Positions 4,211 through 18,136 of a stretch of DNA of 64,000 nt are shown one piece after another (position 1 is the first letter of the stretch; each line of letters starts with the position of its first letter). The stretch comes from Aurantimonas coralicida (GTDB taxonomy: Bacteria > Pseudomonadota > Alphaproteobacteria > Rhizobiales > Rhizobiaceae). The translations under genes and the position numbers were made by a program. The DNA lies in contig DRFF01000190.1 of the NCBI GenBank assembly GCA_011050685.1, positions 1-64,000 of the forward strand, written 5' to 3'. The notes below the pieces were generated by a model. That model did no database searches and was not told where the DNA came from. It saw nothing but the letters and a program-made list of their open reading frames with translations.

Positions 4211-4240
4211 AACGCGGGGCGGCCATGGCCGCCCCGCGTT
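4211..4240 (-). promoter_or_regulatory. Perfect 30-bp palindrome between dppA and dppB
   Basis: Both 15-base arms are exact complements around a central CATG. No T-run follows on the minus strand. In the transcript it would fold into a very GC-rich hairpin after the dppA stop. Intercistronic hairpins at this place in binding-protein operons commonly protect the upstream message or attenuate readthrough, so the binding protein is made in excess. That role is inferred here. Confidence 0.7.
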
Positions 4241-4259
4241 GGACGAGCCGGAAAAACGA

Positions 4260-5855
4260 CTACTCGGCGATGTCGACGCCGTCGAAGCGGTGATATCCGA
4301 GAGGATCCTGAACGAAGTCCTTCACCGATTTGCGCATCGGCATGAAGACCTTCGAATGGTCGATCGTCAGCCAAGGCGCCTCCTGCTTGAAGACCACCTG
4401 CGCCTGTTCGTACAGCTTGGCGCGCTCGGCCTGGTCGGCGACTTCCTTGGCCTTGGTCACAAGATCGTCGAACTCCTTGTTGCACCATTGCGCGCGATTG
4501 TTTCCGCCCACCGCATCACACCCCAGCAGCGTGTCGAGAAAATTATCCGGATCGCCGTTGTCGCCGGTCCAGCCCAGCATCGCGGCGCCATCGCGGTCCT
4601 TCGCCTTGGACTTTTCGAGATACTCCCCCCACTCGTAGGAGACGATCTCGGCCGAGACGCCGACCTTCTGAAGGTCAGCCTGCATCAGCTCCGCCGCGCG
4701 GCGAGCGTTCAGCATGTAAGGTCGGCTGACCGGCATCGCCCAAAGCTTCATGGAGAGATTCTCGACCCCCGCATCCAGGAGCATCTTCTTCGACGCTTCG
4801 GGGTCGTATTTGTCGTCCTCGACCGCGTCGTTATAGGACCACATCGTCGGGGGGATCGGATTCTTGGCAACCGTGGCGGCGCCTTGGAATACGGCGTCGA
4901 CGATCGCCTGCTTGTTGATCGCCATATTCAGAGCCTTGCGGACCTCGACCTTGTCGAAGGGCGCTTGCGTGGTGTTGTAGGCAAGGTAGGCGACGTTCAG
5001 GCCTTCCTGCTCCAGAACGTTGAGATCGGCGTTACCCTGCATTGAAACAACATCGGCCGCGTTGGGATACGGCATGATCTGGCATTCGTTCGCCATGAGC
5101 TTCTGCGCGCGCACGGAGGCGTCCGTGGTGATGGCGAAGATCAGGTCGTCGATCGGCTGCTTGCCGGCCCAGTAATCGGCATGCGCCTTGTAGCGGATGA
5201 CAGCGTCGGGCTGGTAGGCGACGAAGGCGAAGGGGCCGGTGCCGTAAGGTTGCTGGTTCAGCATCTCCATCTGGCCGTCAGCTTCGAGCTTGTCGGCATA
5301 CTCCTTCGACATGATCGAAGCGAAATCCATCGCCAGATCTGCCAGGAACGGGGCTTCGGGGCGGTTGAGGGTGAACTTAACAGTCAGATCGTCGACCTTT
5401 TCGACCGACTTGATCAGCTCGGGAAAGCCCATGCCGGCGGAATATTCCCAGCTCGTTCCTGCCACGTAGGCATTCCAGGGATTGTCGGATTTCAGCTGGC
5501 GCTCGAAGGAAAAGACGACGTCGTCGGCATTGAGGCTGCGCGTCGGGGTGAAGAACTCCGTGGTCTGGAACTTCACGTCGGGGCGTAGCTTGAAGGTGTA
5601 TTCAAGTCCGTCGTCCGACACCTCCCAGGACTCGGCAAGCCCCGGCTCTGTCTCGGTCGAGCCATGCTTGAATTCGACGAGACGGTTATAGACGGTTCGC
5701 GACGCGGCATCGAAGGTCGTACCGGACGTATAGAGCGCCGGGTCGAATCCCTCGGGCGATCCTTCCGAACAGTAGACGAGCGTCTTGGCCGATGCGGCGG
5801 AGCCGAGGGCGAGCGTCAAAGCGGTCGCCGCAACGAGCCGGGTGAACAGTTTCAT
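4260..5855 (-). CDS. dppA: Periplasmic dipeptide-binding protein, DppA type
   Basis: This is the solute-binding component of the importer, 531 residues. It has a clear signal peptide (MKLFTRLVAATALTLALG, cleavage near ASA-KT). The SBP family 5 pattern follows, with the EPGLAESWEVSDDGLEYTF and LNADDVVFSFER regions and a central YGTGPF motif. The ATG at 5855 has AGGGAG nine bases upstream. The ATG at 5864 lies directly against that site and is too close. It is the first gene of the dpp operon and diverges from the HugZ-like gene, so 5856-6061 should hold both promoters. A heme or other ligand cannot be excluded for this family. Confidence 0.93.
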   Translation of the reverse strand: MKLFTRLVAATALTLALGSAASAKTLVYCSEGSPEGFDPALYTSGTTFDAASRTVYNRLVEFKHGSTETEPGLAESWEVSDDGLEYTFKLRPDVKFQTTEFFTPTRSLNADDVVFSFERQLKSDNPWNAYVAGTSWEYSAGMGFPELIKSVEKVDDLTVKFTLNRPEAPFLADLAMDFASIMSKEYADKLEADGQMEMLNQQPYGTGPFAFVAYQPDAVIRYKAHADYWAGKQPIDDLIFAITTDASVRAQKLMANECQIMPYPNAADVVSMQGNADLNVLEQEGLNVAYLAYNTTQAPFDKVEVRKALNMAINKQAIVDAVFQGAATVAKNPIPPTMWSYNDAVEDDKYDPEASKKMLLDAGVENLSMKLWAMPVSRPYMLNARRAAELMQADLQKVGVSAEIVSYEWGEYLEKSKAKDRDGAAMLGWTGDNGDPDNFLDTLLGCDAVGGNNRAQWCNKEFDDLVTKAKEVADQAERAKLYEQAQVVFKQEAPWLTIDHSKVFMPMRKSVKDFVQDPLGYHRFDGVDIAE

Positions 5856-6061
5856 GGATGGCATCTCCCTGATCACGAGGCGGGCCAAACCCGCCGGAAG
5901 TCGATATCGGACAGGTTTTGCCGGCGTCATGCAAGCGCATTTTTTGACCAAGCATTCAAAAAACCACCCCCTGCGCTTCGACCCCCGACGATGCGTATCG
6001 CGTCGATTTGGCCAGGATTTGCCGCTGCGCGGCATGAACAATCTGGTTTATTATTCGTGAG

Positions 6062-6844
6062 ATGAGAAAGAAAACAGATCGCCCCAGGGTTTCGGCTGAC
6101 CGCTCCGCCGGCCGCGCCTCGCCCTTGCAACCCGTCGACGCGGACGCGACACGGCTCGCCCGGACACTGCTGCGCTCGGCTCGCCACGGCGCCCTTGCGG
6201 TGCTGCGCCCCGGCGACGGCCATCCGGCGGCCAGCCGAGTCCTCGTGGCAACCGACTTCCTCGGCCGACCGCTCCTGCTGATGTCCGACCTCACCCTGCA
6301 TGCCAGGGCCCTTGCGGTCGATTGCCGCTGCTCGCTGCTGGTCGGGGCGGCGGGCAAAGGCGATCCCCTCACCCATCCCCGCTTGACGGTGTTCGGGACG
6401 GCAAGCGCCATTGCGGCGGACGATCCGGAGCGGCCGGCGCTGCGGGAGCGGTTCCTCGCGCGGCATCCGAAATCCGCGCTCTACGCGGATTTTAGCAATT
6501 TCCATTTCGTCCAGCTGGAATCGGCGTCCGCTTCGCTGAATGGCGGCTTTGGGCGCGCCTTTGAACTCACGCCTGCCGAGTTCATCGACGGCCCTGCGGA
6601 GGAACTCCAAGCCACAGCCATCCGGGCGCGCGACCACATCAATGCGGACCATGGCGATGCGATCGACCGCATCGCCCTCGATGCCGGCCATGAGGGACAT
6701 GGATGGCGCATCGCGACTCTCGATCGCCTCGGCTTCGAAATTCTGCGGGGAGATGCACTGTGTCGGGTGGAGTTTCCCGCCGATGCCGTGGCAGCCGGCG
6801 GGTTCCGGAGCGCATTCGTCGATCTGGCGGCCGGCCAGGCGTGA
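6062..6844 (+). CDS. HugZ-like pyridoxamine 5'-phosphate oxidase fold protein with DUF2470 domain
   Basis: The 260-residue product has a split-barrel PNPOx-like N-terminal domain (about 25-165) with RTLLRSARHGALAVL and the conserved SDLTLHARAL segment. It ends in a DUF2470 domain (about 175-255) with ARDHINADHGDAIDRIA, where the histidines are typical. Relatives include HugZ heme-utilisation proteins and FMN-binding oxidoreductases. Whether this one binds heme or flavin cannot be told from the sequence. It is monocistronic, divergent from dppA, and no clear iron-responsive operator was seen in the 206-base divergent region. Confidence 0.82.
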   Translation: MRKKTDRPRVSADRSAGRASPLQPVDADATRLARTLLRSARHGALAVLRPGDGHPAASRVLVATDFLGRPLLLMSDLTLHARALAVDCRCSLLVGAAGKGDPLTHPRLTVFGTASAIAADDPERPALRERFLARHPKSALYADFSNFHFVQLESASASLNGGFGRAFELTPAEFIDGPAEELQATAIRARDHINADHGDAIDRIALDAGHEGHGWRIATLDRLGFEILRGDALCRVEFPADAVAAGGFRSAFVDLAAGQA

Positions 6845-6912
6845 CGAATCTGAAAAATGAAACCGCGTGAACCTATGCCCCGACGAACGCGTCGCTCCCC
6901 CGGTTTTGCGGC

Positions 6913-7236
6913 CTAAACCTTGAAGCCCTCCGGGCAAGCCGCGCGGAACCGGCGATTGCTCTGCCCGCTCAGATAGATGCACTGGCCCGGATTATTGGCA
7001 GCAAGGCCGAGCACGCGATCGTCGGAGGTGACGACGGTCTCCGGAATTCGCCCGACCCGGAACGGCGCAACCTCGGCCCCTGAGAGACCGAAAACCGCGC
7101 CAAAAACGGGGGGCAAGGCGCCGCCAGTGCAACCGGATAGCACCATTGCGCCGACCAGCGCCGCAAGGAGGCAGCCGTTCTTTTGATGCCAGCGGGGCGT
7201 CTGCGAACGTTTTTCGGTCAACCTCAGCTTCTCCAT
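6913..7236 (-). CDS. Small predicted lipoprotein with C-terminal paired-cysteine motif
   Basis: The 107-residue product starts MEKLRLTEK. It carries a hydrophobic stretch LLAALVGAMVLSGC that ends in a lipobox cysteine, so it is probably an outer-membrane or periplasmic lipoprotein. The C-terminus has CIYLSG...RFRAACPEGF, which resembles the tail of the neighbouring glycine-zipper lipoprotein at 7438 (YCRYSDGNIYRCPAGY). I do not recognise a named family. An ATG at 7290 would add 18 residues before the signal region and is less likely. Convergent with the HugZ-like gene. Confidence 0.6.
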   Translation of the reverse strand: MEKLRLTEKRSQTPRWHQKNGCLLAALVGAMVLSGCTGGALPPVFGAVFGLSGAEVAPFRVGRIPETVVTSDDRVLGLAANNPGQCIYLSGQSNRRFRAACPEGFKV

Positions 7237-7375
7237 CCCATCATCCTGCGCCGACCGAATGCGCATGTCATCGAGAAACCGCCCGTACACGGACCATCTT
7301 CACTGCCTCGCCGACGGTTCAGCCCGACATTGGACGCGATCGGTCCGTGCCGAGGCCTTTCTCCCGGATTTGGCC

Positions 7376-7410
7376 ACAAAAAAGCTGCCGAGACGACCCC
7401 GGCAGCTCTC
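7376..7410 (-). terminator. Rho-independent terminator after the glycine-zipper lipoprotein gene
   Basis: On the minus strand an 8-bp stem (AGCTGCCG/CGGCAGCT arms at 7383-7390 and 7400-7407) is followed at once by a run of six T. It lies about 30 bases past the stop of the gene ending at 7438. Confidence 0.85.
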
Positions 7411-7437
7411 TTACGATCAAATCGCCGTCGTGCCCGG

Positions 7438-7722
7438 TCAGTAACCGGCTGGGCAACGATAGATGTTACCGTCGGAATAACGGCAATAGCCCGGACGCTC
7501 CTTGGAGCGGCCGATGACGTTGCCGACCACCGCGCCGGTGCCCGCGCCGATGGCGCCGCCGATCAGCGCGCCCTTCGCATCGCCCGTTACGCCGGCTCCG
7601 ATCGCCGCGCCGCCAAGACCGCCAAGCGCCGCGCCTCCGGCTGTATAGCGGTCTTCCGTCGTGCAACCGGCGACCAAGATGGTAACCGCTGCGATGGCGG
7701 CAATCGAATATTTCTTGAACAT
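7438..7722 (-). CDS. Glycine-zipper lipoprotein (17-kDa surface antigen-like)
   Basis: The 94-residue product starts MFKKYSIAAIAAVTILVAGC, with a lipobox at Cys20. A glycine-zipper segment follows (GGAALGGLGGAAIGAG and GALIGGAIGAGTGAVVG), of the type found in Rick_17kDa_Anti and related envelope proteins. The tail has two cysteines in YCRYSDGNIYRCPAGY. GAGAGG six bases before the ATG at 7722 fixes the start. An exact EcfG-type promoter lies 37 bases upstream and a terminator follows, so it is a single-gene stress-inducible unit. Its precise function is unknown. Confidence 0.82.
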   Translation of the reverse strand: MFKKYSIAAIAAVTILVAGCTTEDRYTAGGAALGGLGGAAIGAGVTGDAKGALIGGAIGAGTGAVVGNVIGRSKERPGYCRYSDGNIYRCPAGY

Positions 7723-7758
7723 GTTCAACCTCTCACTGGACCCGTCGTCCCCACTCAC

Positions 7759-7783
7759 AACGATAACGCATCAATTTCGTTCC
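7759..7783 (-). promoter_or_regulatory. EcfG (general stress sigma) promoter for the glycine-zipper lipoprotein gene
   Basis: The minus strand reads GGAAC, 16 bases, CGTT. This is the exact -35/-10 consensus known for alphaproteobacterial EcfG sigma factors. The -10 element ends at 7759, which places a start of transcription about 30 bases before the ATG at 7722. Confidence 0.8.
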
Positions 7784-7866
7784 GTCACCATATTGATGAC
7801 TGACAAGATCCAGATTGGCACGGGTATCAAACGCCGGACAGCCCGCCCAAACTTCTTCTGCCGCTT

Positions 7867-8157
7867 TTAACGGGACGCCACCATCTGCGGTTCCGCGTCA
7901 AACGTGATCAGCAACTCGCCGGTCCGGCTGACGGCCCAGTCGATCGAAGCCGATTGCTCGAAGACGTCCGCGTCGACGGCCTTGCAGGCGCCGAGAACCC
8001 TGCTCTCCGTGGAGCCACTCAGGCGCATCTCCAGCGCCAAATCGCGCCGGCATTCCTCAACCGACTCATATGCCGGAACAGGAACGGGAATTTCTCTGCA
8101 GACCGAAGCATCGCCCGAGCATCCGACAAGTAACATAAAAGCCGCAACATGTTCCAT
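7867..8157 (-). CDS. Small predicted lipoprotein, stress-promoter driven
   Basis: The 96-residue product has a very short hydrophobic leader, MEHVAAFMLLVGC, with a lipobox-like Cys13. A compact domain follows with three further cysteines (VCREIP, EECRRD, GACKAVD), compatible with disulfides outside the cytoplasm. AAGGAG eight bases before the ATG at 8157 fixes the start. An exact EcfG-type promoter sits 23 bases upstream, which leaves a leader of only about 16 bases. I do not recognise a family. Confidence 0.7.
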   Translation of the reverse strand: MEHVAAFMLLVGCSGDASVCREIPVPVPAYESVEECRRDLALEMRLSGSTESRVLGACKAVDADVFEQSASIDWAVSRTGELLITFDAEPQMVASR

Positions 8158-8180
8158 CGAAACGTCTCCTTTGGCTAAAC

Positions 8181-8205
8181 AACGGCCAATTCGTGAAGTC
8201 GTTCC
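8181..8205 (-). promoter_or_regulatory. EcfG (general stress sigma) promoter for the small lipoprotein gene
   Basis: The minus strand reads GGAAC, 16 bases, CGTT, an exact EcfG consensus. The distance from the -10 element to the ATG at 8157 fits a start of transcription just upstream of the ribosome-binding site. Confidence 0.82.
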
Positions 8206-8303
8206 AAATTCCGCCCGGGCACTTGAAAAAAAACGTCTCGGAAAAAGGCGATTCGGCGAAAAGCCCGGTGTTCCAGTCGGCTCAGCGAACCGGGATCGGC
8301 GAC

Positions 8304-9290
8304 TCAGGCCTTTACGGCAGAGGAGCGCGAGTTGACCTCGTACTGGTCCTGAGGAATTGTCAGCGTGTAGCGCAAGCCGTCGGAAAAATATTCAAGCGAG
8401 GCTGCCCCCCCGACCGCGTTCGGCACGATCCGCTCCAACGTCGACGTACCAAAGCGAGCATCACGCTCCGGGCGAACGCGCGGACCGTTTCGTTCTTGCC
8501 AATCCAGGACGAGGGTTTCCTCATCCTCACGGTCTTCAAGCCGCGCGCCGATGGCGACGGTCCCGCCGGGAACAGACAATGATCCATAGGAGGCGGCGTT
8601 GACCGCCAGTTCGTGCAGGGCGAGCCCCACATGCAACGACGCCGTCGGCGAGAGATAGACGTCGGGTGACTCGACCGCGATCTGATCCATGCCATCAGGC
8701 GCGTAGCGCTCGACCTGCATCGTGACGAGGCTCATCAAGTCCGCGCCACGCCAATCGGCATCGGTGACGATATCCTGCGAGTAGGCGAGCGATTGGATCC
8801 GCCCTCTGAAACGAACGAGAAACTCCGGAACGGTCACCGAGTGACGCGCCGTTTGACTCGCCAGACTCTGGATGATCGCCAAAAGGTTCTTGGAGCGGTG
8901 CGACAACTCACGCAGCAGGGTCTTCAGCGTCTCTTCGCGGCGCTTTTGTTCCGTGATCTCCACCGAGGTTCCGATCACGCCGCAGACGTCGCCGTCCTCG
9001 TCATGGTCCACATCGATGCGAACGTCATACCATCGTAAAGAGGCGCCGGACGCGATGGCGAGCTCGAAGCGCGCGGGCCGCTGCGTGCGGATCACCTCCC
9101 GCTTCATCACAACCGATCGCTCGGCGCCCTGCGGCGCCAAAAGATCAGCATCGACCATACCCGCTTGCGCTCCGGCGAGCCAGGATCGGCCGGCATTGCA
9201 GATCCCGACATACCGCAGGTCGCGGTCCTGCGAGAACACGGACATGTCCGTGGTCCCAAGGGCCCGCAATATTTTGTTCGACGCCATCAT
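8304..9290 (-). CDS. HWE-family sensor histidine kinase with PAS-like domain, probable PhyR-pathway kinase
   Basis: The 328-residue cytoplasmic kinase has no membrane helix. Residues about 10-115 look like a PAS sensor ending in the usual GTSVEITEQKRREE linker. The phosphoacceptor box is ELSHRSKNLLAI (His131). The ATPase core has LHELAVNAASYG (His226, Asn231) and WQE at 264-266, the three hallmarks of the HWE family. It is followed on the same strand upstream by phyR, so it is a strong candidate for a kinase that phosphorylates PhyR. The ATG at 9290 (MMASNK) has only a weak GAG upstream. The frame is also open to 9308. The signal sensed is unknown. Confidence 0.85.
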   Translation of the reverse strand: MMASNKILRALGTTDMSVFSQDRDLRYVGICNAGRSWLAGAQAGMVDADLLAPQGAERSVVMKREVIRTQRPARFELAIASGASLRWYDVRIDVDHDEDGDVCGVIGTSVEITEQKRREETLKTLLRELSHRSKNLLAIIQSLASQTARHSVTVPEFLVRFRGRIQSLAYSQDIVTDADWRGADLMSLVTMQVERYAPDGMDQIAVESPDVYLSPTASLHVGLALHELAVNAASYGSLSVPGGTVAIGARLEDREDEETLVLDWQERNGPRVRPERDARFGTSTLERIVPNAVGGAASLEYFSDGLRYTLTIPQDQYEVNSRSSAVKA

Positions 9291-9619
9291 AGGATGCTCG
9301 GCCAACACGATTGCCCCGACCTCGACCTCGACGCGACCTTATAGCCGCAAACATTCCGCCGAGAGAGGGGCACCTCACCTTCAAATCGTTCCACACGGGC
9401 AGCAGACCGCGAGCCCATGTTCGATGCAGTCCGGACCGCGACAATCAGGCCACCCGCATCCGCTGCATCACCTGAACGCGGGCCGGTGATGCTCCTTCCC
9501 TTCCGATTCTCGCCGACCCGCTCAGCTTGCACGACAACACATCGGTCGACCCCAAAGGATTCCGATGATGCACGGCGACCATTGCCGACTAGCTGGCGAG
9601 TGGACATGGCGACAGCCGC
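9291..9619. other. 329-base gap between phyR and the HWE kinase gene
   Basis: I see no convincing gene here. A plus-strand open frame in the second half has biased composition and no ribosome site. At 9475-9499 the minus strand has GGAAG, 16 bases, CGTT, one mismatch from the EcfG consensus. It could drive the kinase gene with a leader of about 180 bases, but this is weak. Confidence 0.4.
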
Positions 9620-10414
9620 TTACGCCGCCGCCTGACTATCGGTTTCGAAGAACAGTGCCTGGCTGATCAACGCCTTCACCATGTCGGGGTTGAACGGCTT
9701 GGTCACCAGGAAGGTGGGCTCTGGCCGCTCGCCGGTCAAAAGCCGCTCCGGGAACGCGGTAATAAAGATGACCGGAACCGAAACCTTCGCGAGAATATCG
9801 TTGACCGCATCGATTCCCGAACTGCCGTCGGCAAGCTGAATATCGGCCAGCACCATCCCGGGCCGCTGCCGCTCGAACAGCGCAATCGCCTCCTTTTGCG
9901 TCCGGGCAATACCGGTCACGGTGTGCCCGAGGCTTTCCACCATCTGCTCGATATCCATCGCGATCAGCGGTTCATCCTCGATGATCATGATATCGGTCGA
10001 CACCTGCCGCCCAATGTCGGAACTGGCCTGGTCGATCAAGTCCGAGAACTTCGCCTCGTCGGCGCCGAGAATGTAGCCGGCCTCCTCGGTCGTGAACCCC
10101 TCGACCGCGACGAGGAGAAACGCCTGCCTCGGCAACGGCGAGATGGCGCGCAGATTGCGAGAGGCCTTCTCTTCCCAAGCGGAGGTCGGCGCATCGTCGC
10201 GAATGTTCACCTCGACGGACTGCCACATCGAGGAAAACAGCTTGTAGAGCGAAATTCGCGGCGCTTGGTCGTCGGGAAACAGGCTCGGATCGGCAATCAA
10301 AGCTTCCAGAACAGCCGCGACATAAGCATCACCGCTCGATTGAGAGCCGCTAAGTGCTCGTGAATAGCGCCTAAGATACGGAATATGCGGCGCTATGCGG
10401 GATGACATCGACAT
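9620..10414 (-). CDS. phyR: PhyR, anti-anti-sigma response regulator of the general stress response
   Basis: The 264-residue product has a sigma-factor-like N-terminal domain (about 8-135) fused to a receiver domain (about 140-258). The receiver has the acidic pair E146/D147, phosphoacceptor Asp191 in MVLADIQLADG, Thr219 and Lys239. The diagnostic segment FITAFPERLLTG marks the PhyR type. Phosphorylated PhyR binds NepR and frees the sigma factor EcfG. The ATG at 10414 is preceded by GAGGGGAG five bases away. It is divergent from nepR-ecfG, and an exact EcfG promoter upstream indicates positive feedback. Confidence 0.95.
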   Translation of the reverse strand: MSMSSRIAPHIPYLRRYSRALSGSQSSGDAYVAAVLEALIADPSLFPDDQAPRISLYKLFSSMWQSVEVNIRDDAPTSAWEEKASRNLRAISPLPRQAFLLVAVEGFTTEEAGYILGADEAKFSDLIDQASSDIGRQVSTDIMIIEDEPLIAMDIEQMVESLGHTVTGIARTQKEAIALFERQRPGMVLADIQLADGSSGIDAVNDILAKVSVPVIFITAFPERLLTGERPEPTFLVTKPFNPDMVKALISQALFFETDSQAAA

Positions 10415-10459
10415 GAAAACTCCCCTCGTGTCGACCGAAACAAAGTCGGTGGGCGTGAA

Positions 10460-10484
10460 AACGCGGAATATGCAGAAAAGTTCC
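10460..10484 (-). promoter_or_regulatory. EcfG promoter for phyR
   Basis: The minus strand reads GGAAC, 16 bases, CGTT, matching the EcfG consensus exactly. The -10 element ends 46 bases before the phyR ATG. This is the autoregulatory arrangement known for phyR in other alphaproteobacteria. Confidence 0.85.
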
Positions 10485-10616
10485 ACGCATTGGAACTTTA
10501 TGCGCTTCCAACGATTAGGCACATGGGAACTGGGTTGGAAAAGTGAAACCTCATCGTCAAATATTGTGGGCAGCAGCGCCTTAATATCTTGATGGGCGGG
10601 GGATCGAAGCTAGTTT

Positions 10617-10635
10617 CTCGGCAACGATTGCCGAG
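10617..10635. repeat. Inverted repeat in the phyR-nepR intergenic region
   Basis: Perfect 8-base arms CTCGGCAA and TTGCCGAG flank CGA. No T-run follows on either strand, so it is not an intrinsic terminator. It lies about 130-150 bases upstream of nepR and could be a regulator site or RNA structure. The rest of the 352-base region 10415-10766 holds the phyR promoter. I found no exact EcfG promoter facing nepR. Confidence 0.5.
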
Positions 10636-10766
10636 GGGGTGTCAGTGCGAATGCGAGTTTTGCAAATGAGAGATACGCGACAGACCGTCAGCGCGCGGCT
10701 ACCAACAAGGCTGCTTAACACAACGCTCCGAGACGGATGATGGGTGATCGCGAGACGAAGGAAGAT

Positions 10767-10958
10767 ATGGTGCATACGGCACATGTGAACAAATCTGCGG
10801 GTAAGGGTACCGATCCCGGCGTGCATTCGGCGATCGGCAAGCGTCTGAAGGCGTATTATGATGACGTGGCGAGCGAGCCTGTCCCGGATCGCTTCCTGTC
10901 GCTGCTGGACGCGCTCGACGAGGCGGAATCCGCCTCCAAGACATCAGGCCGCAAGTAG
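10767..10958 (+). CDS. nepR: NepR, anti-sigma factor of EcfG
   Basis: The small soluble protein, 63 residues from the ATG at 10767, has the NepR core IGKRLKAYYDDVASEPVPDRFLSLLDALDEAE. The segment LKAYYDDVASEPVPDRF is the conserved helix and loop that sequesters EcfG and is captured by phosphorylated PhyR. AAGGA four bases before 10767 supports this start. Tandem ATG codons at 10737 and 10740 would add about ten residues and cannot be excluded. It lies six bases ahead of ecfG, so the two are co-transcribed. Confidence 0.88.
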   Translation: MVHTAHVNKSAGKGTDPGVHSAIGKRLKAYYDDVASEPVPDRFLSLLDALDEAESASKTSGRK

Positions 10959-10964
10959 GTTTTG

Positions 10965-11516
10965 ATGAGCGATCAGATGGACTTTCGCAGGGAATTGATT
11001 GCTATTATTCCCAATTTGAGAGCGTTCGCCGCCTCGCTGTCCGGTTCGTTCGATCGGGCCGACGACTTGGTGCAGGAGACGCTCGTCAAGGCTTGGGACA
11101 AACAGCATACCTTCCAGCCCGGGACCAACCTCAAGGCTTGGCTCTTCACGATCTTGCGCAACGAATTCTACACGCAAATGCGCAGAAAGGGACGTGAGGT
11201 GCAGGATGTCGACGGGATGCATGCCATGCAGCTCGCCGGTCACCCGGAGCAGCAGGGACATGTCGATCTGCAGGATTTCCGCAAGGCGCTGGACATGCTG
11301 CCCGACGATCAGCGCGAAGCGCTGATCCTGATCGGCGCATCCGGCTTCTCCTACGAGGAAGCAGCAGACATCTGCCATTGCGCCGTCGGAACGATCAAAA
11401 GCCGCGTGTCGCGCGCCCGTACCAGAATCAGTGAAATCCTCGGCATCGAGGGGGACGGCGAATACGGTCCTGACTCGATTTCCTCGCAGATCATCGGAGT
11501 TGCTCCGGCCGCCTGA
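10965..11516 (+). CDS. ecfG: EcfG, ECF sigma factor of the general stress response
   Basis: The 183-residue sigma factor has region 2 at about 12-78 (FDRADDLVQETLVKAWDKQHTF, then LKAWLFTILRNEFYTQMRR) and region 4 at about 107-160. Region 4 has LPDDQREALILIGASGFSYEEAA and an HTH ending CAVGTIKSRVSRAR. This is the EcfG/ECF15 pattern paired with NepR. The ATG at 10965 follows TAGGT closely and a TTG three bases earlier is also open. It is expected to read the GGAAC-N16-CGTT promoters listed nearby. A tail of about 22 residues after region 4 is slightly longer than usual. Confidence 0.94.
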   Translation: MSDQMDFRRELIAIIPNLRAFAASLSGSFDRADDLVQETLVKAWDKQHTFQPGTNLKAWLFTILRNEFYTQMRRKGREVQDVDGMHAMQLAGHPEQQGHVDLQDFRKALDMLPDDQREALILIGASGFSYEEAADICHCAVGTIKSRVSRARTRISEILGIEGDGEYGPDSISSQIIGVAPAA

Positions 11517-11556
11517 CAACCGTCGTTCCCAGGCGTGCAAAAGCTGCGCGTCGCAT

Positions 11557-11581
11557 GGAACAACGCGCGGGCTAAATGGTT
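11557..11581 (+). promoter_or_regulatory. Possible EcfG promoter for the DUF883 gene
   Basis: GGAAC, 16 bases, GGTT, one mismatch from CGTT in the -10 element. It lies 85 bases before the ATG at 11666 and after the ecfG stop. Plausible in context but not exact. Confidence 0.45.
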
Positions 11582-11665
11582 TCAGGTAAGAAGATCGCCC
11601 TCGGGACCGAGCGCCCCATCCACAGTTCCAGGCCCCATTGTCAATTCGCACAGAACGAGGTTCTC

Positions 11666-12025
11666 ATGGCTTCCGACACTTCCCCGAACACGAGCTCAAC
11701 TTCAGCTCAGACGGCGGGCCCCACCCCCGCGAAGGGCGACAATGCCGACCTGGAAGCACAGGTTGCCAAGCTGCGCGAGGACGTTGCGGGAGTGGCGGAT
11801 GCGCTGAAGTCTCTGGCGACGGGCCGAGCAGATGATGCGAAGCGACAGGCTTTTGCCTTGAGGGACGATGTGCGCGAACGCGGCGAGCAATATCTGCGTC
11901 AGGCGCAGGACGCCGCCTCCGATCTCGAGGAGCAACTCAGCGAAAAGGTTCGCTCCGAGCCGATCAAGAGTGTGCTTATCGCCGCGGCTGTTGGCTACCT
12001 CTACGCCCGTCTCTTCCGCCGCTGA
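11666..12025 (+). CDS. DUF883/ElaB-YqjD family membrane-anchored protein
   Basis: The 119-residue product has a low-complexity Ser/Thr/Ala N-terminus and a long charged helix (about 28-95, LEAQVAKLREDVAGVADALKSLA and RQAQDAASDLEEQLSEKV). It ends in a short C-terminal membrane segment with SVLIAAAVGYLYARLFRR. This is the layout of ElaB/YqjD, stress-induced inner-membrane proteins that can associate with ribosomes. GAGG five bases before the ATG at 11666 sets the start. It is followed two bases later by the YqjE-like gene, a pairing also seen in enterobacteria. Confidence 0.8.
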   Translation: MASDTSPNTSSTSAQTAGPTPAKGDNADLEAQVAKLREDVAGVADALKSLATGRADDAKRQAFALRDDVRERGEQYLRQAQDAASDLEEQLSEKVRSEPIKSVLIAAAVGYLYARLFRR

Positions 12026-12027
12026 CG

Positions 12028-12480
12028 ATGATCCTGCAACTGATCATCAAGCTGATAACCGGCGAAGCCGGGATTTATATGGCGCGGCTGAAGCGGCTGG
12101 CCGTGCTCTACGCCATCATGGGACTCTTCGCGATCGCGATGCTGGCCTCACTGATCAGTGCCCTGTCCATCTTCCTGGCCAATCGGTACGGGGCGTTGGA
12201 GACGGCGCTGGGATTCGCGGGCGTTTCGTTCCTGTTGCTCATCGCGACGGGGGTCGCCGTGGTGATCGCGCGCAGACCGCCCCGCAAACGCGCCGACGAC
12301 CGCCTGCAACGCGATATCGCTGCGATCGCGGGCGTCACCGCCCTGTCGAGTGCGCCACAGGTTTTCGGCTTGGTGAAAAAGCGCAAAGGCCTCTTGCTTG
12401 TGCCGGTCGCGGCGGCGGGCGCCTGGGGCATCTGGCGGGCGATCTCCTCCTACAGAACCCGCGGAGACCGATGGTACTGA
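12028..12480 (+). CDS. YqjE/phage-holin-like inner membrane protein
   Basis: The 150-residue product has two strong membrane helices (about 24-52 and 60-82), then a basic cytoplasmic segment RRPPRKRADDRLQRD. A third hydrophobic stretch, LLLVPVAAAGAWGIW, lies near 124-138. The start at 12028 comes two bases after the DUF883 stop, so the genes are coupled. Relatives are annotated as holin-superfamily or YqjE proteins, probably stress-related envelope proteins rather than true phage holins. No phage genes are nearby. Confidence 0.7.
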   Translation: MILQLIIKLITGEAGIYMARLKRLAVLYAIMGLFAIAMLASLISALSIFLANRYGALETALGFAGVSFLLLIATGVAVVIARRPPRKRADDRLQRDIAAIAGVTALSSAPQVFGLVKKRKGLLLVPVAAAGAWGIWRAISSYRTRGDRWY

Positions 12481-12544
12481 CGGCGTAGCGCTCAGCCGAC
12501 CCGATACGCAGCGGGACGGCCGGGCGTTTTCAAGGAGTATCACG

Positions 12545-12589
12545 ATGACGATTCCACAGATCGAATCCAAAAAGGTTTCCCTTGTCTGA
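12545..12589 (+). CDS. 14-codon leader-like micro-ORF
   Basis: A strong AAGGAG lies eight bases before an ATG that opens a 14-residue frame, MTIPQIESKKVSLV. Its TGA (12587-12589) lies inside the start of the next gene, whose TTG begins at 12582. The arrangement looks like a translated leader coupled to the downstream gene. It has no known relatives that I can name and could also be a remnant start. Confidence 0.4.
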   Translation: MTIPQIESKKVSLV

Positions 12590-12809
12590 TATCGAACCCG
12601 ACAACGCCAGGCAGGGGAAAAAGGGTACGCCCGTACTCCTTGTTCTCATTGCCGGATTGGTTCTCGCCGTCATCGCCTTCCTGGGCCTTGGCGCCTATGG
12701 CTGGTTCCTGCCGGATTCCGACCTCTCCACCGACCGACCCGCGATCGCGGTTCCGGCCGTCGGCTCCGAGCCCCCGGAAACAGTCGTCGCGCCCGAGAAT
12801 TCAGGCTAG
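12582..12809 (+). CDS. Small single-helix membrane protein of unknown function
   Basis: The frame opens with TTG (AAGG six bases upstream) and encodes 75 residues. A basic N-terminus (RQGKKGT) is followed by one membrane helix, VLLVLIAGLVLAVIAFLGLGAY, and a Pro/Val/Glu-rich outer tail. Positive charges before the helix suggest the C-terminus lies in the periplasm. It overlaps the micro-ORF by eight bases. I do not recognise a family. Location inside the stress island is the only clue to function. Confidence 0.5.
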   Translation: MSDIEPDNARQGKKGTPVLLVLIAGLVLAVIAFLGLGAYGWFLPDSDLSTDRPAIAVPAVGSEPPETVVAPENSG

Positions 12810-12885
12810 TATCGTCTTTGCGAAATCGGCCATGCCCCGACTTCTGGCATCGGGGCGTTCAGACAGAGCCCTAGGGAGATTGCAG

Positions 12886-13254
12886 ATGTCCGATCCTCAT
12901 AACCACACCGAGACCGATATCCTCGCCGTTGACGAAGAAATCGGCGACGATGCCGATCAACCTGGCATCAGTCAGCCGGTCACTCAGGCCGAGATCGAAG
13001 ACATTCTCAACAGTTCCGGAATGACGATCGAAGAGCGTCAGGGGCGCCTCGAGGAACTGGCCCGCCAGGTCGGAACGCGGGACGTCATCGACCAGGGCGG
13101 CGAATTCGACCCGCTTCAGCAACAGATCAGCGAAGCGCTGAACATGCTCGCCCAAGGTGGCCATACTTACGGCACGCTGGAGGCCGCGGGCCTCGATCCC
13201 GAGGCACGCTCCGATGCGCGCTCCCCCGACGATCTCCCGGACGACGACAACTGA
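12886..13254 (+). CDS. Small acidic hypothetical protein
   Basis: The 122-residue product starts MSDPHNHTETDIL, is strongly acidic and has no signal or membrane segment. Its middle part, EIEDILNSSGMTIEERQGRLEELARQVG, looks helical, and the C-terminus is Asp-rich. AGGGAG seven bases before the ATG at 12886 fixes the start. The same frame is open further upstream but overlaps the previous gene. Upstream, at about 12832-12863, a GCCCCGA/TCGGGGC hairpin without a T-run separates it from the membrane protein gene. Function unknown. Confidence 0.6.
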   Translation: MSDPHNHTETDILAVDEEIGDDADQPGISQPVTQAEIEDILNSSGMTIEERQGRLEELARQVGTRDVIDQGGEFDPLQQQISEALNMLAQGGHTYGTLEAAGLDPEARSDARSPDDLPDDDN

Positions 13255-13302
13255 GCCACCGGACGCCGTAGTCTATATCGACGGGCGAGCCGGAGCCGGG
13301 CC

Positions 13303-14214
13303 TCAAAGATAGGTGGCCTCCGCCGGCACCAAGACCTTGAGGGCGCGTGGGTGGATCTCCACGATGCTTTCCGCGTCCAACGTGCAGAGTTCGCCATCCA
13401 GAACGGCCCGCTTCTTTCGATTCTTGCCCCGATAGTGAATGCGCACCCGTTGCGCCGTCTGGGACAGGAGGTCTGGATTCTGCCGCCAGGCGCCGGTCAA
13501 GATATCGAACGTCAATTTGGTCACCGCGCCCACCTTACGTTCCGTGCAGATGTAGACGCCCAATTCGCCTCCCCGCGGATCATCGGCATACGGGATATGC
13601 CCAACTCCGTAGAGATTGTTCGACACCGCGACGGCAGGCGACTTGATACGCTTGAGGACGCCGTCGATCTCAAGCTCGAGTTCGATCGCAGGAACCCGCC
13701 GTAGCGCCAGGAAGACTGCGCGTGCCGTCGCGACGATTTTACCGAGCCGGGAGCCATACTGGATCTTGGCGCGCATCCGGACCATCCGGGCATGCAACCC
13801 GACGGCAAACTGATGCACGAATATCCGGTCATTGACGCTGCCGATGTCAACATTCACCACCACGCCCCCTGCCAGCGCGGCTACGGCCGCGGGCAAATCG
13901 AGCGGAATTTGGAGTGTCCGGGCAAACAGGTTCATCGTGCCGGCCGGCAAAATGCCGAGCGCGATGCCGCCGTGGGCTAGCGCGGCCGCCGCCGCCGATA
14001 CCGTCCCGTCTCCCCCCCCCACCAAAAGCACGTCGAGATCGTCACGCCGAGCGGCGGTCTTGATCGCGGCAACGATCGCGTCACCCGCGCAACTCTCCAC
14101 GGTCAATTCATGCCCGTGGATCGCAAACTCGTCACGCATGAGCGCCGTGAGTTCGTCGTGGTCCGTCGTTTTCAACGTTCCGCCGTCTCGATTGAGGAGG
14201 GCGAGAATCTTCAT
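13303..14214 (-). CDS. Diacylglycerol kinase-family lipid kinase
   Basis: The 303-residue product has the DAGK catalytic domain. It shows N8 R D G G at the N-terminus, VLLVGGGDGTVSAAA (GGGDGT, about 64-69) and GILPAGTMNLFARTL. The C-terminal YegS/LCB5-like part contains IVATARAVFLALRR and ends with the DGE element VLDGELCTLDAES. Such enzymes phosphorylate diacylglycerol or related lipids at the membrane, though the true substrate of bacterial members is often unknown. It is convergent with the acidic protein gene and divergent from the DUF1328 gene. Confidence 0.87.
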   Translation of the reverse strand: MKILALLNRDGGTLKTTDHDELTALMRDEFAIHGHELTVESCAGDAIVAAIKTAARRDDLDVLLVGGGDGTVSAAAAALAHGGIALGILPAGTMNLFARTLQIPLDLPAAVAALAGGVVVNVDIGSVNDRIFVHQFAVGLHARMVRMRAKIQYGSRLGKIVATARAVFLALRRVPAIELELEIDGVLKRIKSPAVAVSNNLYGVGHIPYADDPRGGELGVYICTERKVGAVTKLTFDILTGAWRQNPDLLSQTAQRVRIHYRGKNRKKRAVLDGELCTLDAESIVEIHPRALKVLVPAEATYL

Positions 14215-14386
14215 GGGATCGTATCCGGCGTTTGAAGTGACCCGCGGGGTCTGCGGCCACCCGCGCTAAATTAGGCGGCGAATTCATAAGCAAATGGGGC
14301 GAGTGAAAAGAAATGCCCCCGGATTCGCCCCGGATAGGCCCGGAAGTTCTCCACCCCGACAACGATGGGAAAAACAGTTGTTAAGC

Positions 14387-14411
14387 GGAACCATTACGCG
14401 GGTGGTCCGTT
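14387..14411 (+). promoter_or_regulatory. EcfG promoter for the DUF1328 gene
   Basis: GGAAC, 16 bases, CGTT, an exact match to the EcfG consensus. The predicted start of transcription lies about 50 bases before the ATG at 14468. Confidence 0.8.
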
Positions 14412-14467
14412 TCATCGCCATCGTCGAACCCGGCCGCTACTAGCGTGCCCAGATGTGGGAGCATCTC

Positions 14468-14632
14468 ATGATCGAATGGATCGTCATATTGCTGATCGTC
14501 GCGGCGGTCGCCAGCCTGTTGGGATTTCGCGGCGTCGCCGGAGCATCGGCCGGCATCGCCAAGATTCTCATCTTCATCGTCCTCATCGGCCTGTTGTTGA
14601 TGCTGCTCTTCGGAGTTCTGGTGTTCGCATGA
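14468..14632 (+). CDS. DUF1328 (YtjA-type) small membrane protein
   Basis: The 54-residue protein MIEWIVILLIVAAVASLLGF has two membrane helices around the conserved loop GFRGVAGASAGIAKIL, the signature of the DUF1328/YtjA family. GGAG six bases before the ATG supports the start. Family members are small inner-membrane proteins often induced by stress. The exact EcfG promoter upstream fits that. Its biochemical role is unknown. Confidence 0.85.
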   Translation: MIEWIVILLIVAAVASLLGFRGVAGASAGIAKILIFIVLIGLLLMLLFGVLVFA

Positions 14633-14742
14633 CGCAAACCGCTGCGGGGCAGAGCCTTCGTGGCGCGCCTCATCACGAAGTTCGTGAATAAAACGTGACC
14701 AAATGGGAACCGATCGCTTTCCCGCAAATTAACCCACTGAAT

Positions 14743-14782
14743 GCCACGCGGCACCTGCTTTCCACAACACACACCGCGTGGC
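14743..14782 (+). repeat. Inverted repeat upstream of the PRC-barrel protein gene
   Basis: Perfect 9-base arms GCCACGCGG (14743-14751) and CCGCGTGGC (14774-14782) enclose 22 bases. The second arm ends 38 bases before the ATG at 14821. If transcribed, it would form a stable stem in the 5' untranslated region. If not, it could be an operator. No exact EcfG promoter was found in 14633-14820. Confidence 0.5.
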
Positions 14783-14820
14783 TAAGTCTATCGGTAACAA
14801 TAGACCAAGGAGGTCTTATC

Positions 14821-16548
14821 ATGATCCGCAAACTTCTCGCTACCACCGCACTTGCCACTGTGATCGCCACAGGCGCCTATGCGCAGGATGCCGCGACCCC
14901 GGAGCAGACCAAGGTTCCCGAGGCAGCTGCCACCGCCGACACGTCCGCTACGACGGCCGCGCCTGCCGCTGACGCAAGCGCACAGACCGAACAGACCGCC
15001 AGCGCAGGCGGATATCTGCAGAACCTGTCGGCGGACCAGTACCTCGCGTCCGAGCTCAGCGGTGCCTCGATCTATGCCAGCGAAGCAGAGGATGCCGAGA
15101 CCGTCGGTGAGATCCAGAACTTCCTCGTCGGAAACGATGGTTCCGTCGTCGCAGCGATCGTCGATGCGAATGTCGGCGACCAGTCCAAGACTGTCGCCGT
15201 TCCCTTCGACCAGATCACCTGGACCATGGATAAGGACAATGAGCCGCGCGCGGTTCTCAACCTGAGCGCCGATCAGCTCGCCCAAGCCCCAGCGTTTACC
15301 AAGCCGGACGAGCAGCAGGCGGCGGCTTCGACCGAAGGTGCCGTTGTGGCGCCTGCTGGCGAGGCATCCACTGAGACGGCCGCAGCGACCGGCGACGCGT
15401 CCAAGGCTGAAACCCAGACCGAGGCCAAGATCGCGGCGGAGACCACTCAGCCCGATGCCAACGCCGCAGCGACCCAGACGGCATCGTCGTCGACAAGTGG
15501 TGAATTCCTGACGAGCGTTGGTGCCGATCAGTATCTCTCGGAAAACATCATCGGCGCCGAGGTCTATTCGGGCCCGGGTGAGGACGCTGAGGAAATCGGC
15601 GAAATCAACAACCTCGTCCTGGCATCGTCGGGCAAGATCGAGGCCGGTATCATCGGTGTCGGCGGGTTCCTCGGAATCGGCGAGAAGGACGTCGCGGTGC
15701 CGTTCGATCAGTTCCAGATGGCCAGGGAAGCCGACGACAAAGACGACGTCCGCGTGGCGCTCGCCGCGTCGAAGGAGCAGTTGGAGAAGGCACCGTCTTT
15801 CGAAGACCAGCGTCCGGAGCAGATGGCCGCCACGGAAACCGGCGCAGTTGATGCGACGGCGAAAACCGAGCAGACGGCAAACGTCGAGGCCTCCACCGAG
15901 AAGTCGGCGGAGTACACCGAGAAGCTTGCCGCCGATGCCAAGGCGAACACCAACGAGGCTGCCGACAAGGCCGCGCTGGAGACCAAGCAGGCAGCAGCGG
16001 ACGTCGAGACCAAGACGGACAATGCAGCTCTGGAGACCCAGCAGGCCGCCGACGCGGCAGCCGCAGGCGCTGCGGGCGTTGTCGCTGGCACGGCCGACGC
16101 GACGACCACCGCTTCGACCGGTGGCACCGACCAGCAGCAGCAGATGACTCCGGTCACCGACATGTCGCTGCTCACCGCCGACAATCTGATGGGCACGACG
16201 GTCTACGGCCCGAACGAAGACAAGGTCGGCGAAATCGGCGACATCGCGCTCAGCGAAGACGGCAAGGTCGACGCGATCATCGTCGACGTCGGCGGCTTCC
16301 TCGGCATCGGTGAGAAGGAAGTTGCGGTCGCCATGGACAACCTGCAGTTCATGCAGGACGCCAATGGTTCGCTCTACCTCTACACGCAGTTCTCCGAGGA
16401 TCAGCTGAAGAGCCAGCCGGAGTACAACGCCGACACCTACGCCGCGAGCCGCGACACCATGCGCCTCCGGAGCGGCGAAGTGCCGGCCCAGTCGAGCAAC
16501 ACCGCTCCGGTCCCGGCTGAGGAGCAGCCGACGACGAAGACCAACTGA
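14821..16548 (+). CDS. Exported protein with three PRC-barrel-like domains
   Basis: The 575-residue product begins with a signal peptide (MIRKLLATTALATVIATGAYA). It then has three PRC-barrel-like units, at about 60-160, 225-340 and 445-545. Each has a G-x-x-V/I-Y strand, a V/I-G-E-I turn and VAVPFDQ or VAVAMDN. The second and third share GGFLGIGEK. Long Ala/Thr/Glu/Lys-rich linkers, including helical AADKAALETKQAAADVETK, separate them. A perfect AAGGAGGT lies before the ATG at 14821. The frame is also open upstream but without a ribosome site. Probably periplasmic; ligand unknown. Confidence 0.85.
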   Translation: MIRKLLATTALATVIATGAYAQDAATPEQTKVPEAAATADTSATTAAPAADASAQTEQTASAGGYLQNLSADQYLASELSGASIYASEAEDAETVGEIQNFLVGNDGSVVAAIVDANVGDQSKTVAVPFDQITWTMDKDNEPRAVLNLSADQLAQAPAFTKPDEQQAAASTEGAVVAPAGEASTETAAATGDASKAETQTEAKIAAETTQPDANAAATQTASSSTSGEFLTSVGADQYLSENIIGAEVYSGPGEDAEEIGEINNLVLASSGKIEAGIIGVGGFLGIGEKDVAVPFDQFQMAREADDKDDVRVALAASKEQLEKAPSFEDQRPEQMAATETGAVDATAKTEQTANVEASTEKSAEYTEKLAADAKANTNEAADKAALETKQAAADVETKTDNAALETQQAADAAAAGAAGVVAGTADATTTASTGGTDQQQQMTPVTDMSLLTADNLMGTTVYGPNEDKVGEIGDIALSEDGKVDAIIVDVGGFLGIGEKEVAVAMDNLQFMQDANGSLYLYTQFSEDQLKSQPEYNADTYAASRDTMRLRSGEVPAQSSNTAPVPAEEQPTTKTN

Positions 16549-16578
16549 TCGTCAACGGAACAACCAACAAGCGGAAAG

Positions 16579-16606
16579 GGGCTCGCCGAAAGGCGGGCCC
16601 TTTTTT
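16579..16606 (+). terminator. Rho-independent terminator after the PRC-barrel gene
   Basis: A 9-bp stem (GGGCTCGCC and GGCGGGCCC, one G-T pair) closed by GAAA is followed by six T. It begins about 30 bases after the stop at 16548. Confidence 0.9.
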
Positions 16607-16771
16607 CGTTGCCGGTCCCGCCGGTCGTTCGCCCGATGCCGCGCTTGTGAAGCGGAAACGGCTCGAATTACACTTCGTAACCCATCCTTGCGGGTGTCGT
16701 CGTCCAAACTCCGCTATAATCGCATCCAGGGTCCGACGATCGCGCCGCCCTTCTAGATGACACGGTAGCCA

Positions 16772-18136
16772 ATGGCATTCCTGAAACAGCTGATCGTAAC
16801 GCTCGTGGTGCTGCTGGGGGCGGGGGCAGCCTATTTGAAGGTCGATCCGGCGGCGGGCCGGTGGATCCTGGAATCCGACATCGCCCTCCCCCCGGCGATC
16901 CGATCCGCCATCGTCTGGCTCGCGCCAGAGGCTGCAAATCCCGCGATGGAAGCAAGCGCCGAGCGTCCAGGCGGAGGGCGCGCAGGCGCCGGCCGCGGCA
17001 ACAATGCAACTCCCGTGGTCGCCGGCGCGGTTACGACCGGGGTGACCCGCACACGGATGCGGGCGATCGGCACCGGCGATGCCGCGCGTTCGATCGTGGT
17101 CTATCCGGACAATACCACCGGCATCGTGGCGGAGATCGGCATCGGTTCCGGCGAGAAGGTCGAGGAAGGCGACATTCTCGTGCGTCTTGAGAAGGCGAGC
17201 GAGGAAATTGCGGTGGAGCGTGCCAGAATCGCCCTCGATGCCGCGGAAGACAAGGTTACTCGCTTCGAACGGCTGCGGAAATCGAACACCCTCAGCGCGG
17301 TCGAGGTCGATACCATCATCCGCGAGCGCGAGACCGCTAGGCTGGATCTGCGAACCGCCGAAATCGCACTGGGCAAACGCGACATTCGCGCTCCGATTGG
17401 AGGCCGCGTCGGCATCGTCTCGGTCGACAAGGGAGATCTCGTCGGCAGTCAGACGGTCATTGCCACCGTCGACGGCCGCGAGCAATTGAAGGTCATCTTC
17501 TATACGCCGGAAAGCTTCGTGAAGGAACTGACAGTCGGCGCGCCGGTGCAGGCTGTCTCGACCGCCCGTCCGGACAAGACCTATCAAGGCCACATCAGCG
17601 CGATCGACAGCCGTCTGGATGAAAGCAGCCGCACCTTGCGCACCGAAGCGATGATCGACAATGCCGACGACGCGCTGCGTCCGGGCATGTCGTTCACCGT
17701 GACCTTGTCGCTGGAGGGCGAAACCTTCCTCTCCCTTGATCCGATTGCTGTGGTTTGGGAGCGCACCGGACCGATCGTTTGGAAAATCGTCGATGGCAAA
17801 GCGCACAAAGCGGCGGTTCAGATCGTCGAGCGCAACAGCGACAGGGTTCTGGTCACATCCGACGCTCTCAAGACGGGCGATCTCGTCGTGATCGAAGGGC
17901 TGCAGTCTGTCCGCTCGGACGGTGCCGTAACGATCCAGACGACCGACGGGCCGAAGCCAAGCGGAGCGCCGGCCTCGCCCCGGTCGGCGCCACCGACTCC
18001 ATCGGCCGACAATGCGCCAGCGACGACCGGACGCCGGAGTTTCCTCGCGCCTGAGGCCGTCGGGAGCGCCGCGGCAGCCGCCTTGCCGGTGGCCCCCACT
18101 CTTCCCGCGACCAGCGCCGAGGACCCGGCCCGATGA
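16772..18136 (+). CDS. RND efflux periplasmic adaptor (membrane fusion protein)
   Basis: The 454-residue product has an N-terminal membrane anchor, FLKQLIVTLVVLLGAGAAYL, and no lipobox. The core is HlyD/AcrA-like. A lipoyl half-motif GIVAEIGIGSGEKVEEGDILVRLE leads into a helical hairpin (about 145-200), and the second half-motif is IRAPIGGRVGIVSVDKGDLV. Beta-barrel and membrane-proximal parts follow. The tail after about 395 is Pro/Ala-rich and probably unstructured. It overlaps the RND pump gene by four bases (ATGA), so the two form an operon. No outer-membrane channel gene is adjacent. Confidence 0.9.
   Translation: MAFLKQLIVTLVVLLGAGAAYLKVDPAAGRWILESDIALPPAIRSAIVWLAPEAANPAMEASAERPGGGRAGAGRGNNATPVVAGAVTTGVTRTRMRAIGTGDAARSIVVYPDNTTGIVAEIGIGSGEKVEEGDILVRLEKASEEIAVERARIALDAAEDKVTRFERLRKSNTLSAVEVDTIIRERETARLDLRTAEIALGKRDIRAPIGGRVGIVSVDKGDLVGSQTVIATVDGREQLKVIFYTPESFVKELTVGAPVQAVSTARPDKTYQGHISAIDSRLDESSRTLRTEAMIDNADDALRPGMSFTVTLSLEGETFLSLDPIAVVWERTGPIVWKIVDGKAHKAAVQIVERNSDRVLVTSDALKTGDLVVIEGLQSVRSDGAVTIQTTDGPKPSGAPASPRSAPPTPSADNAPATTGRRSFLAPEAVGSAAAAALPVAPTLPATSAEDPAR

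Follow-up and report, generated by a model that had tools for sequence, protein, structure and literature searches.

Does the general stress response (GSR) locus of Aurantimonas coralicida lie among genes that its own sigma factor controls, and is such an arrangement peculiar to it? The stretch analyzed here (the window: 64,000 nucleotides, positions 1 to 64,000 of contig DRFF01000190.1, GenBank assembly GCA_011050685.1) comes from a 4.86-Mb draft genome. An initial annotation placed phyR, nepR, ecfG and an HWE histidine kinase gene together within about 3.3 kb, and this was borne out by a Pfam search, which locates the four at 8304-11516. The features by which a GSR core is recognized are present: a PhyR with a sigma-like domain and a receiver, a NepR encoded next to the sigma gene, the adjacent extracytoplasmic function (ECF) sigma factor EcfG, which we take from published papers to be of the ECF15 type, and a nearby HWE kinase carrying the HRXXN motif. 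The closest named relative of PhyR belongs to an uncultured Aurantimonas (98%); those of A. marina (95%) and A. aggregata (92%) are among the others.

In this system stress leads the HWE kinase to phosphorylate PhyR, phosphorylated PhyR sequesters NepR, and EcfG is freed; RNA polymerase carrying EcfG then reads promoters of the form GGAAC-N16-CGTT. Autoregulation of the core is textbook knowledge, phyR being a textbook target of EcfG. The phyR and nepR-ecfG promoters are described as GSR-dependent in the available portion of PMC8103513. Judged from its sequence, the locus is very probably the PhyR-NepR-EcfG core of an Aurantimonas species, encircled by local EcfG targets that are themselves conserved; the whole would form the dense centre of a scattered regulon.

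Promoter motifs around the regulator core

Four credible promoters lie 23-56 bp before phyR, the glycine-zipper gene, an orphan gene for a 96-aa protein and the DUF1328 gene (Table 1); gene predictions are those of a home-made codon-score caller. They were scored with a matrix trained on other genera, without Aurantimonas. With the core bases included, the four sites reach 20-26 bits, the next site 13.3 and the best site of the reversed window 12.7. With spacer and flanks only, as used for the genome ranking, they stand 1st, 2nd, 4th and 7th among the 44 exact matches to GGAAC-N16/17-CGTT in the genome. The window contains six exact matches against 1.14 expected, a count of at least six being reached in 1 of 100 shuffles. 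Five of the 44 genome matches fall inside one 6,653-bp span, which occurred in none of 20,000 simulations; four exact matches inside such a span occurred in 21 of 20,000.

The sites are also kept within the genus. Synteny from an ABC permease to an RND pump is preserved in all seven congeners, making eight genomes with the window. The sites before the glycine-zipper and DUF1328 genes are exact in all eight, the latter with an N17 spacer in one; the phyR and orphan-gene sites are exact in five and read GGAAC-N16-CATT in the other three. The DUF883 site is conserved in all eight genomes as GGAAC-N16-[AG]GTT; its matrix score, 8.8, does not exceed the noise of the reversed window. Upstream of the PRC-barrel gene, seven of the eight genomes retain GGAAC, with one or two mismatches in the -10; in the eighth (L045) the gene start is misplaced by a partial match, and GGAAC-N16-GGTT is present at 13732. 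Comparison of five orthologous site sets, leaving out the single N17 site, reveals a -35 identical in all pairs, a -10 identical in 87-100%, and 39-52% identity over the last 13 spacer positions.

Could these be chance matches to a short motif? Only nine bases are fixed, and the 44 genome matches fall below the 84 of the reversed motif, so many of them must be due to chance. For the four sites, this explanation is refuted by the clustering simulations, the matrix ranks and the conservation in the genus, together with the enrichment and spacer profile in the family described below, and its probability is close to nil. Chance does likely explain three further matches. The exact N17 match within the orphan gene has a matrix score of -0.5 and no exact or one-mismatch counterpart at that place in the seven relatives; the exact match at 36094 scores -4.6, which is chance level; and the near match upstream of the kinase gene carries two to three mismatches in the seven relatives, a site with at most one mismatch being found in 116 of 2000 random 250-mers of the window.

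The observation made in the initial annotation is thus confirmed, with two corrections. Its exact promoters before phyR, two "lipoprotein" genes and the DUF1328 gene all stand, the lipoprotein label holding for the glycine-zipper protein and being doubtful for the 96-aa protein. Of its near matches, the one before the DUF883 gene is retained and the one before the kinase gene is not. It had missed the poor site before nepR-ecfG and the GGAAC kept before the PRC-barrel gene with a decayed -10. The genome-wide motif count that it had put forward as its own check did not refute it, and its picture of regulators embedded among their own likely targets agrees with a local enrichment that is well above the genome and conserved in genus and family.

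Enrichment across the family and class

A search of 81 genomes from 80 genera gave a nepR in 67. The family test covered 66 of these, with a single locus for each genus, that of the best-scoring nepR; the same-genus genome G001 was counted with its genus, a separate count was kept for the second nepR loci of eight genomes, and three weak sub-cut-off nepR matches were left out. Within 6 kb of nepR there are 293 exact motifs, where 12.0 are expected from each genome's own rate, and 61 of the 66 loci have at least one. The excess spans about -4 to +6 kb around nepR. Beyond -5 and +7 kb, exact motifs at these loci are still about three times as frequent as in the genome at large. Spacers of N16 (240) and N17 (62) predominate, each other length from N10 to N23 giving 5-19 motifs and the reversed motif 22. 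Among 303 motifs within 7 kb, 253 sit at most 300 bp before a predicted start, 151 of these at 20-59 bp. The placed sites comprise 76 before regulators and 177 before other genes; a recount from a looser search gave the same numbers.

A promoter-placed site precedes at least one non-regulator gene in 53 of the 66 loci, and the idea that such an island is unusual is not upheld. Expressed as loci with a site over loci with the gene, the targets are DUF1328 (36/37), DUF883 (30/48), the orphan gene (24/31), PRC (23/28), a CsbD-like gene named by eye (10/11), the HWE kinase (12/55), the lipid kinase (8/26) and the glycine-zipper group (5/26). The glycine-zipper site is therefore uncommon in the family though exact throughout the genus. 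Because the genera are related, their counts are not independent, and the ratios are to be read as descriptive. In the class test, which took 20 of the 24 over-cut-off matches outside the family, 50 sites were found against 3.4 expected. Within 7 kb, 17 placed sites lie at regulators and 20 at other genes (12 of the 20 loci), and 15 sites are not placed; a DUF1328 target occurs in four of those 12 loci.

A different ECF sigma factor that recognizes a similar motif might instead use these sites, as the available part of PMC6180224 reports that S. meliloti RpoE6 overlaps the targets of RpoE2. The clustering of the sites around ecfG in 61 of the 66 loci and their position before phyR make this very unlikely.

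Outside the window, the genome has 38 matches, of which 12 are promoter-placed only, six are placed but inside another predicted gene, 15 are in genes and five are neither. Seven downstream proteins were scanned and comprise Ku, a bacterial topoisomerase IB, a sigma-70-family factor, a PRC-barrel protein, Pmp3, DUF305 and DUF2188; the sigma factor among them, a second one beside EcfG, looks RpoH-like by eye. Comparison of downstream translations between two genomes only, G000 and G001, reveals orthologous exact sites at nine places outside the window and two inside. In Sphingomonas, the targets of EcfG include Ku and topoisomerase IB (PMC6599016, accessible text), and rpoH2 is a target of RpoE2 in S. 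meliloti (PMC3616915, accessible text). Since scattered targets of these kinds are known from other EcfG regulons, we count them in favour of an EcfG regulon centred on this locus. The roughly 12-18 predicted placed sites elsewhere mean that the island is the dense part of a regulon that is still scattered. The "compact functional unit" of the initial annotation is thus no more than an inference, and its overall interpretation is partly supported.

Several results weigh against reading the locus as an EcfG core ringed by its targets. Genome-wide, the reversed control outnumbers the exact motif (84 against 44), and the extent of the regulon therefore cannot be read from sequence alone. At five of the 66 loci the 6 kb on either side of nepR are free of exact motifs, and 13 loci lack a non-regulator target. 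The outer flanks, with 23 sites in 514 kb (0.045 per kb), lie above the mean genome rate of 0.015, so that the excess is about eight-fold locally and not 24-fold. Finally, nepR-ecfG has no good site before it, with two mismatches in three of the eight genus genomes including the window and one in the other five; self-activation of EcfG is therefore unproven in this species.

Inherited neighbours or recruited ones

Under the EcfG reading, the sigma factor would feed back positively on phyR and also raise four units close by, namely the glycine-zipper lipoprotein, the orphan four-cysteine protein, the DUF883-YqjE pair and DUF1328. The PRC-barrel gene would have a weaker EcfG site. The local products may reinforce the envelope or the inner membrane, and the island would have passed down through the family while its members were shuffled.

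How the targets came to lie there is a separate question. There are 94 copies of DUF1328 in 60 of the 81 genomes, 51 of them at most 10 kb from a nepR. The usual type, where near nepR, lies just after phyR in 30 of 41 cases, 1.1-1.5 kb upstream of nepR on the other strand; the window's genome is one of eight that instead have a more divergent paralog +3.5 to +4.4 kb from nepR. An exact site precedes 23 of the 24 near copies examined (of 51) and 11 of the 26 distant copies examined (of 43; p 5e-5). A strict link between DUF1328 promoter and island was rejected: two of the first six distant copies had a site, and 20 more brought the count to 11 of 26. In wider relatives, the usual paralog found outside the island has an exact site in none of seven cases (L317, L318, L324, L327, L348, L349 and L350). 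Five of those seven genomes have the divergent DUF1328 in the island; in G027 and G029 it too lies elsewhere, without a site.

The targets may have stood beside the core in the family ancestor and stayed there, their proximity being without effect. We consider this an evenly balanced proposition. Gene order is complete in all eight genus genomes, common genes (at least 20 loci) hold 207 of the 238 core-zone target sites, and the 66 genera are related, so that their counts are not independent. This frozen arrangement is at odds with the two DUF1328 paralogs at different island positions in different lineages, and with the recurrence of DUF1328 or CsbD-like targets beside the locus in other families. 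It also fits poorly with rare genes (at most five loci), which carry placed sites more often in the core zone (16/198) than outside (5/334; p 0.0003).

Those same three observations favour a locus that draws in its targets, EcfG-driven genes being preferentially placed or kept near ecfG, either because closeness helps a low-abundance sigma factor or because the set travels together. The higher share of exact sites among near DUF1328 copies points the same way, as do the second nepR loci of eight genomes, likewise enriched (35 motifs, 1.7 expected). Distant divergent DUF1328 copies carry sites too (9 of 17), so closeness is not required for control; the rare genes are few and their set depends on the home-made gene caller, and the counts ignore phylogeny. 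We regard drawing-in as conceivable and lean somewhat against it. At the second nepR loci (L193-L200; 35 motifs, about 1.7 expected), seven of the eight genomes have DUF1328 1.2-4.9 kb away from that nepR, whereas in G018 it is beside the first nepR.

Taken together, the DUF1328 and rare-gene data lean towards repeated recruitment as a possibility. On this basis we suggest, as a speculation that we hold to be doubtful, that the GSR locus of Alphaproteobacteria serves as a gathering point, where EcfG-driven genes are repeatedly placed, exchanged and kept from about 4 kb upstream to 6 kb downstream of nepR, closeness giving an earlier or steadier response. If proximity is selected, it would have implications for the way in which global regulators influence gene order. 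In the literature searched, which did not extend to subscription papers, the clustering of EcfG targets around the GSR locus was found only piecemeal, and in one of the searches no paper contained both DUF1328 and EcfG.

The finding is sound and, for a known stress system, mostly to be expected. It yields a short list of candidate GSR effectors, namely DUF1328, DUF883/YqjE, the glycine-zipper lipoprotein, the four-cysteine orphan, the PRC-barrel protein and the CsbD-like protein, which are kept beside the sigma factor in many genera of the family.

Gene products and comparison with known loci

On the minus strand, the order is glycine-zipper lipoprotein gene, orphan gene, PAS-HWE kinase gene and phyR. 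On the plus strand, nepR and ecfG, separated by 6 bp, are followed by the DUF883-like and YqjE-like genes and two small hypotheticals, and later by the DUF1328 and PRC-barrel genes, with a minus-strand lipid kinase gene of the DAGK type between (Table 1). The YqjE-like name is one that we presume for that product. The PRC-barrel stretches sit in Ala/Thr-rich linkers, and the protein aligns only partially to some congeners. A foreign origin of the island was considered and rejected, the GC content at 6-16 kb (0.588-0.643) lying inside the window range (0.569-0.664) with no tRNA in the window. An Rfam scan of 4000-20000 gave no match.

Table 1. Genes and motif sites of the Aurantimonas GSR locus, in window positions
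Feature	Position	Strand	Remarks
Glycine-zipper lipoprotein gene	7438..7722	-	PF13488 E 2.8e-8; lipobox LVAGC
Orphan 96-aa protein gene	7867..8157	-	four invariant cysteines; unassigned in Pfam and NCBIfam
PAS-HWE histidine kinase gene	8304..9308	-	PF07536 E 4.5e-23, PAS_4; phosphoacceptor motif SHRSKN
phyR, anti-anti-sigma response regulator	9620..10414	-	PF22029, PF22233, PF00072 (Response_reg); NF006623 389 bits, cut-off 240
nepR, anti-sigma factor	10737..10958	+	PF18557 E 3.2e-17, above cut-off
ecfG, general-stress ECF sigma factor	10965..11516	+	Sigma70_r2/r4_2; NF009199 309 bits, cut-off 219
ElaB/YqjD (DUF883)-like gene	11666..12025	+	PF05957 E 0.0017, under cut-off; NF007523 31 bits, cut-off 157
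YqjE-like small membrane protein gene	12028..12480	+	directly 3' of DUF883 gene; without family match
Small gene, single hydrophobic stretch	12582..12809	+	kept across genus
Conserved hypothetical gene	12886..13254	+	conserved in genus
DAGK/YegS-type lipid kinase gene	13303..14214	-	PF00781 E 2e-20
DUF1328 small membrane protein gene	14468..14632	+	PF07043 E 2.4e-10; start from codon-score gene caller
PRC-barrel protein gene, 575 aa	14821..16548	+	signal-like start; PF05239 in three stretches
Putative EcfG-type promoter, glycine-zipper gene	7759..7783	-	GGAAC-N16-CGTT, 36 bp before start
Exact N17 motif in coding sequence	7869..7894	-	within 3' end of orphan gene; judged chance
Putative EcfG-type promoter, orphan gene	8181..8205	-	exact motif, 23 bp before start
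Near match upstream of kinase gene	9475..9499	-	one mismatch; judged chance
Putative EcfG-type promoter, phyR	10460..10484	-	top score in window and among genome's exact matches
Degenerate EcfG-type promoter, DUF883 gene	11557..11581	+	-10 is GGTT instead of CGTT
Putative EcfG-type promoter, DUF1328 gene	14387..14411	+	exact motif
Decayed EcfG-like site before PRC gene	14706..14730	+	GGAAC-N16-AATT

The orphan protein has 54 matches in 51 of the 81 genomes, 42 of them at most 10 kb from a nepR, and its four cysteines are invariant across 31 family sequences. A search of the protein against Pfam and NCBIfam gave no entry above cut-off, and Pfam over the 31 members gave weak rows only (best E 0.012, in one member). 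Foldseek with its model found nothing that reached E 0.001 (best 0.39), a second look gave structural Z values of at most 4.9 over residues 2-65, and nothing under E 0.86 was found by sequence among solved structures. Conservation is strong at the start, MEH.AA..LLVGC, which a fairly confident model (mean pLDDT 85.6) renders as a beta strand. This is unlike a signal peptide and casts doubt on the lipoprotein label; going by the model, the protein is probably not a lipoprotein. The LVGC in the start does fit a lipobox, and nine members touch the Rz1-like lysis protein family (E 0.045 or worse), which, if real, would favour a lipoprotein.

Compared with the PhyR-NepR-EcfG system as generally described, the locus is alike in its core parts, the divergent phyR and nepR-ecfG, the adjacent HWE kinase and the phyR motif. 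It differs in the nepR-ecfG site, decayed in the genus, and in having more surrounding targets than the description of the core mentions. In the S. meliloti rpoE2 region (SMc01504-SMc01509), rsiB1, rsiA1 and SMc01508/9 are RpoE2-dependent according to the accessible parts of PMC3616915 and PMC6180224, a likeness of regulation. SMc01509 and SMc01508 rise by 4.5 and 2.6 log2 on RpoE2 overexpression (PMC6180224, available text), their closeness to rpoE2 being deduced from tag numbers, and an RpoH-like promoter precedes the kinase gene, SMc01507, in that region (PMC3616915, available text).

The available text of PMC3892343 describes, in the conserved ecfG1-phyR region of R. etli, an EcfG target just beyond the kinase gene, as found here. 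That target, ReC64, lies beside the kinase and is EcfG1-driven by 5' RACE and mutants; it is a noncoding RNA, whereas the Aurantimonas target is a protein gene on the kinase strand. The promoters beyond the kinase in Rhizobium loci face the opposite way to the one here, and the orphan gene was rejected as the counterpart of the ReC64 unit for that reason.

A structured RNA of about 134 nt occurs at L256:11998-12131, with three hairpins, C-rich loops and a terminator-like last hairpin; four pairs show compensatory changes in seven sequences. Judged by position, it is probably R. etli ReC64, which is reported as 88 bp. An Rfam scan of two Rhizobium loci gave no match to it, and its model, built on seven Rhizobium loci only, has no match in the window or its genome. 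The RNA begins 0-7 nt after an EcfG motif with no or one mismatch in 19 of the 22 matches checked outside the training loci, the exceptions being L281, L272 and L291; 13 rows (opposite strand or second matches on listed loci) were left out of this check. It is also found in L173, L161, L172, L176, L182, L168, L197, L148, L169 and L178, and in L179, L274, L280, L282, L285, L287, L288, L292 and L298.

Small proteins with an AARLAMG-like stretch and a C-terminal hydrophobic segment are encoded at L135, L149, L153, L160 and L188, about -1.5 to -2.9 kb from nepR. The five come from a single regular expression, and three of them have an exact EcfG motif at most 200 bp upstream.

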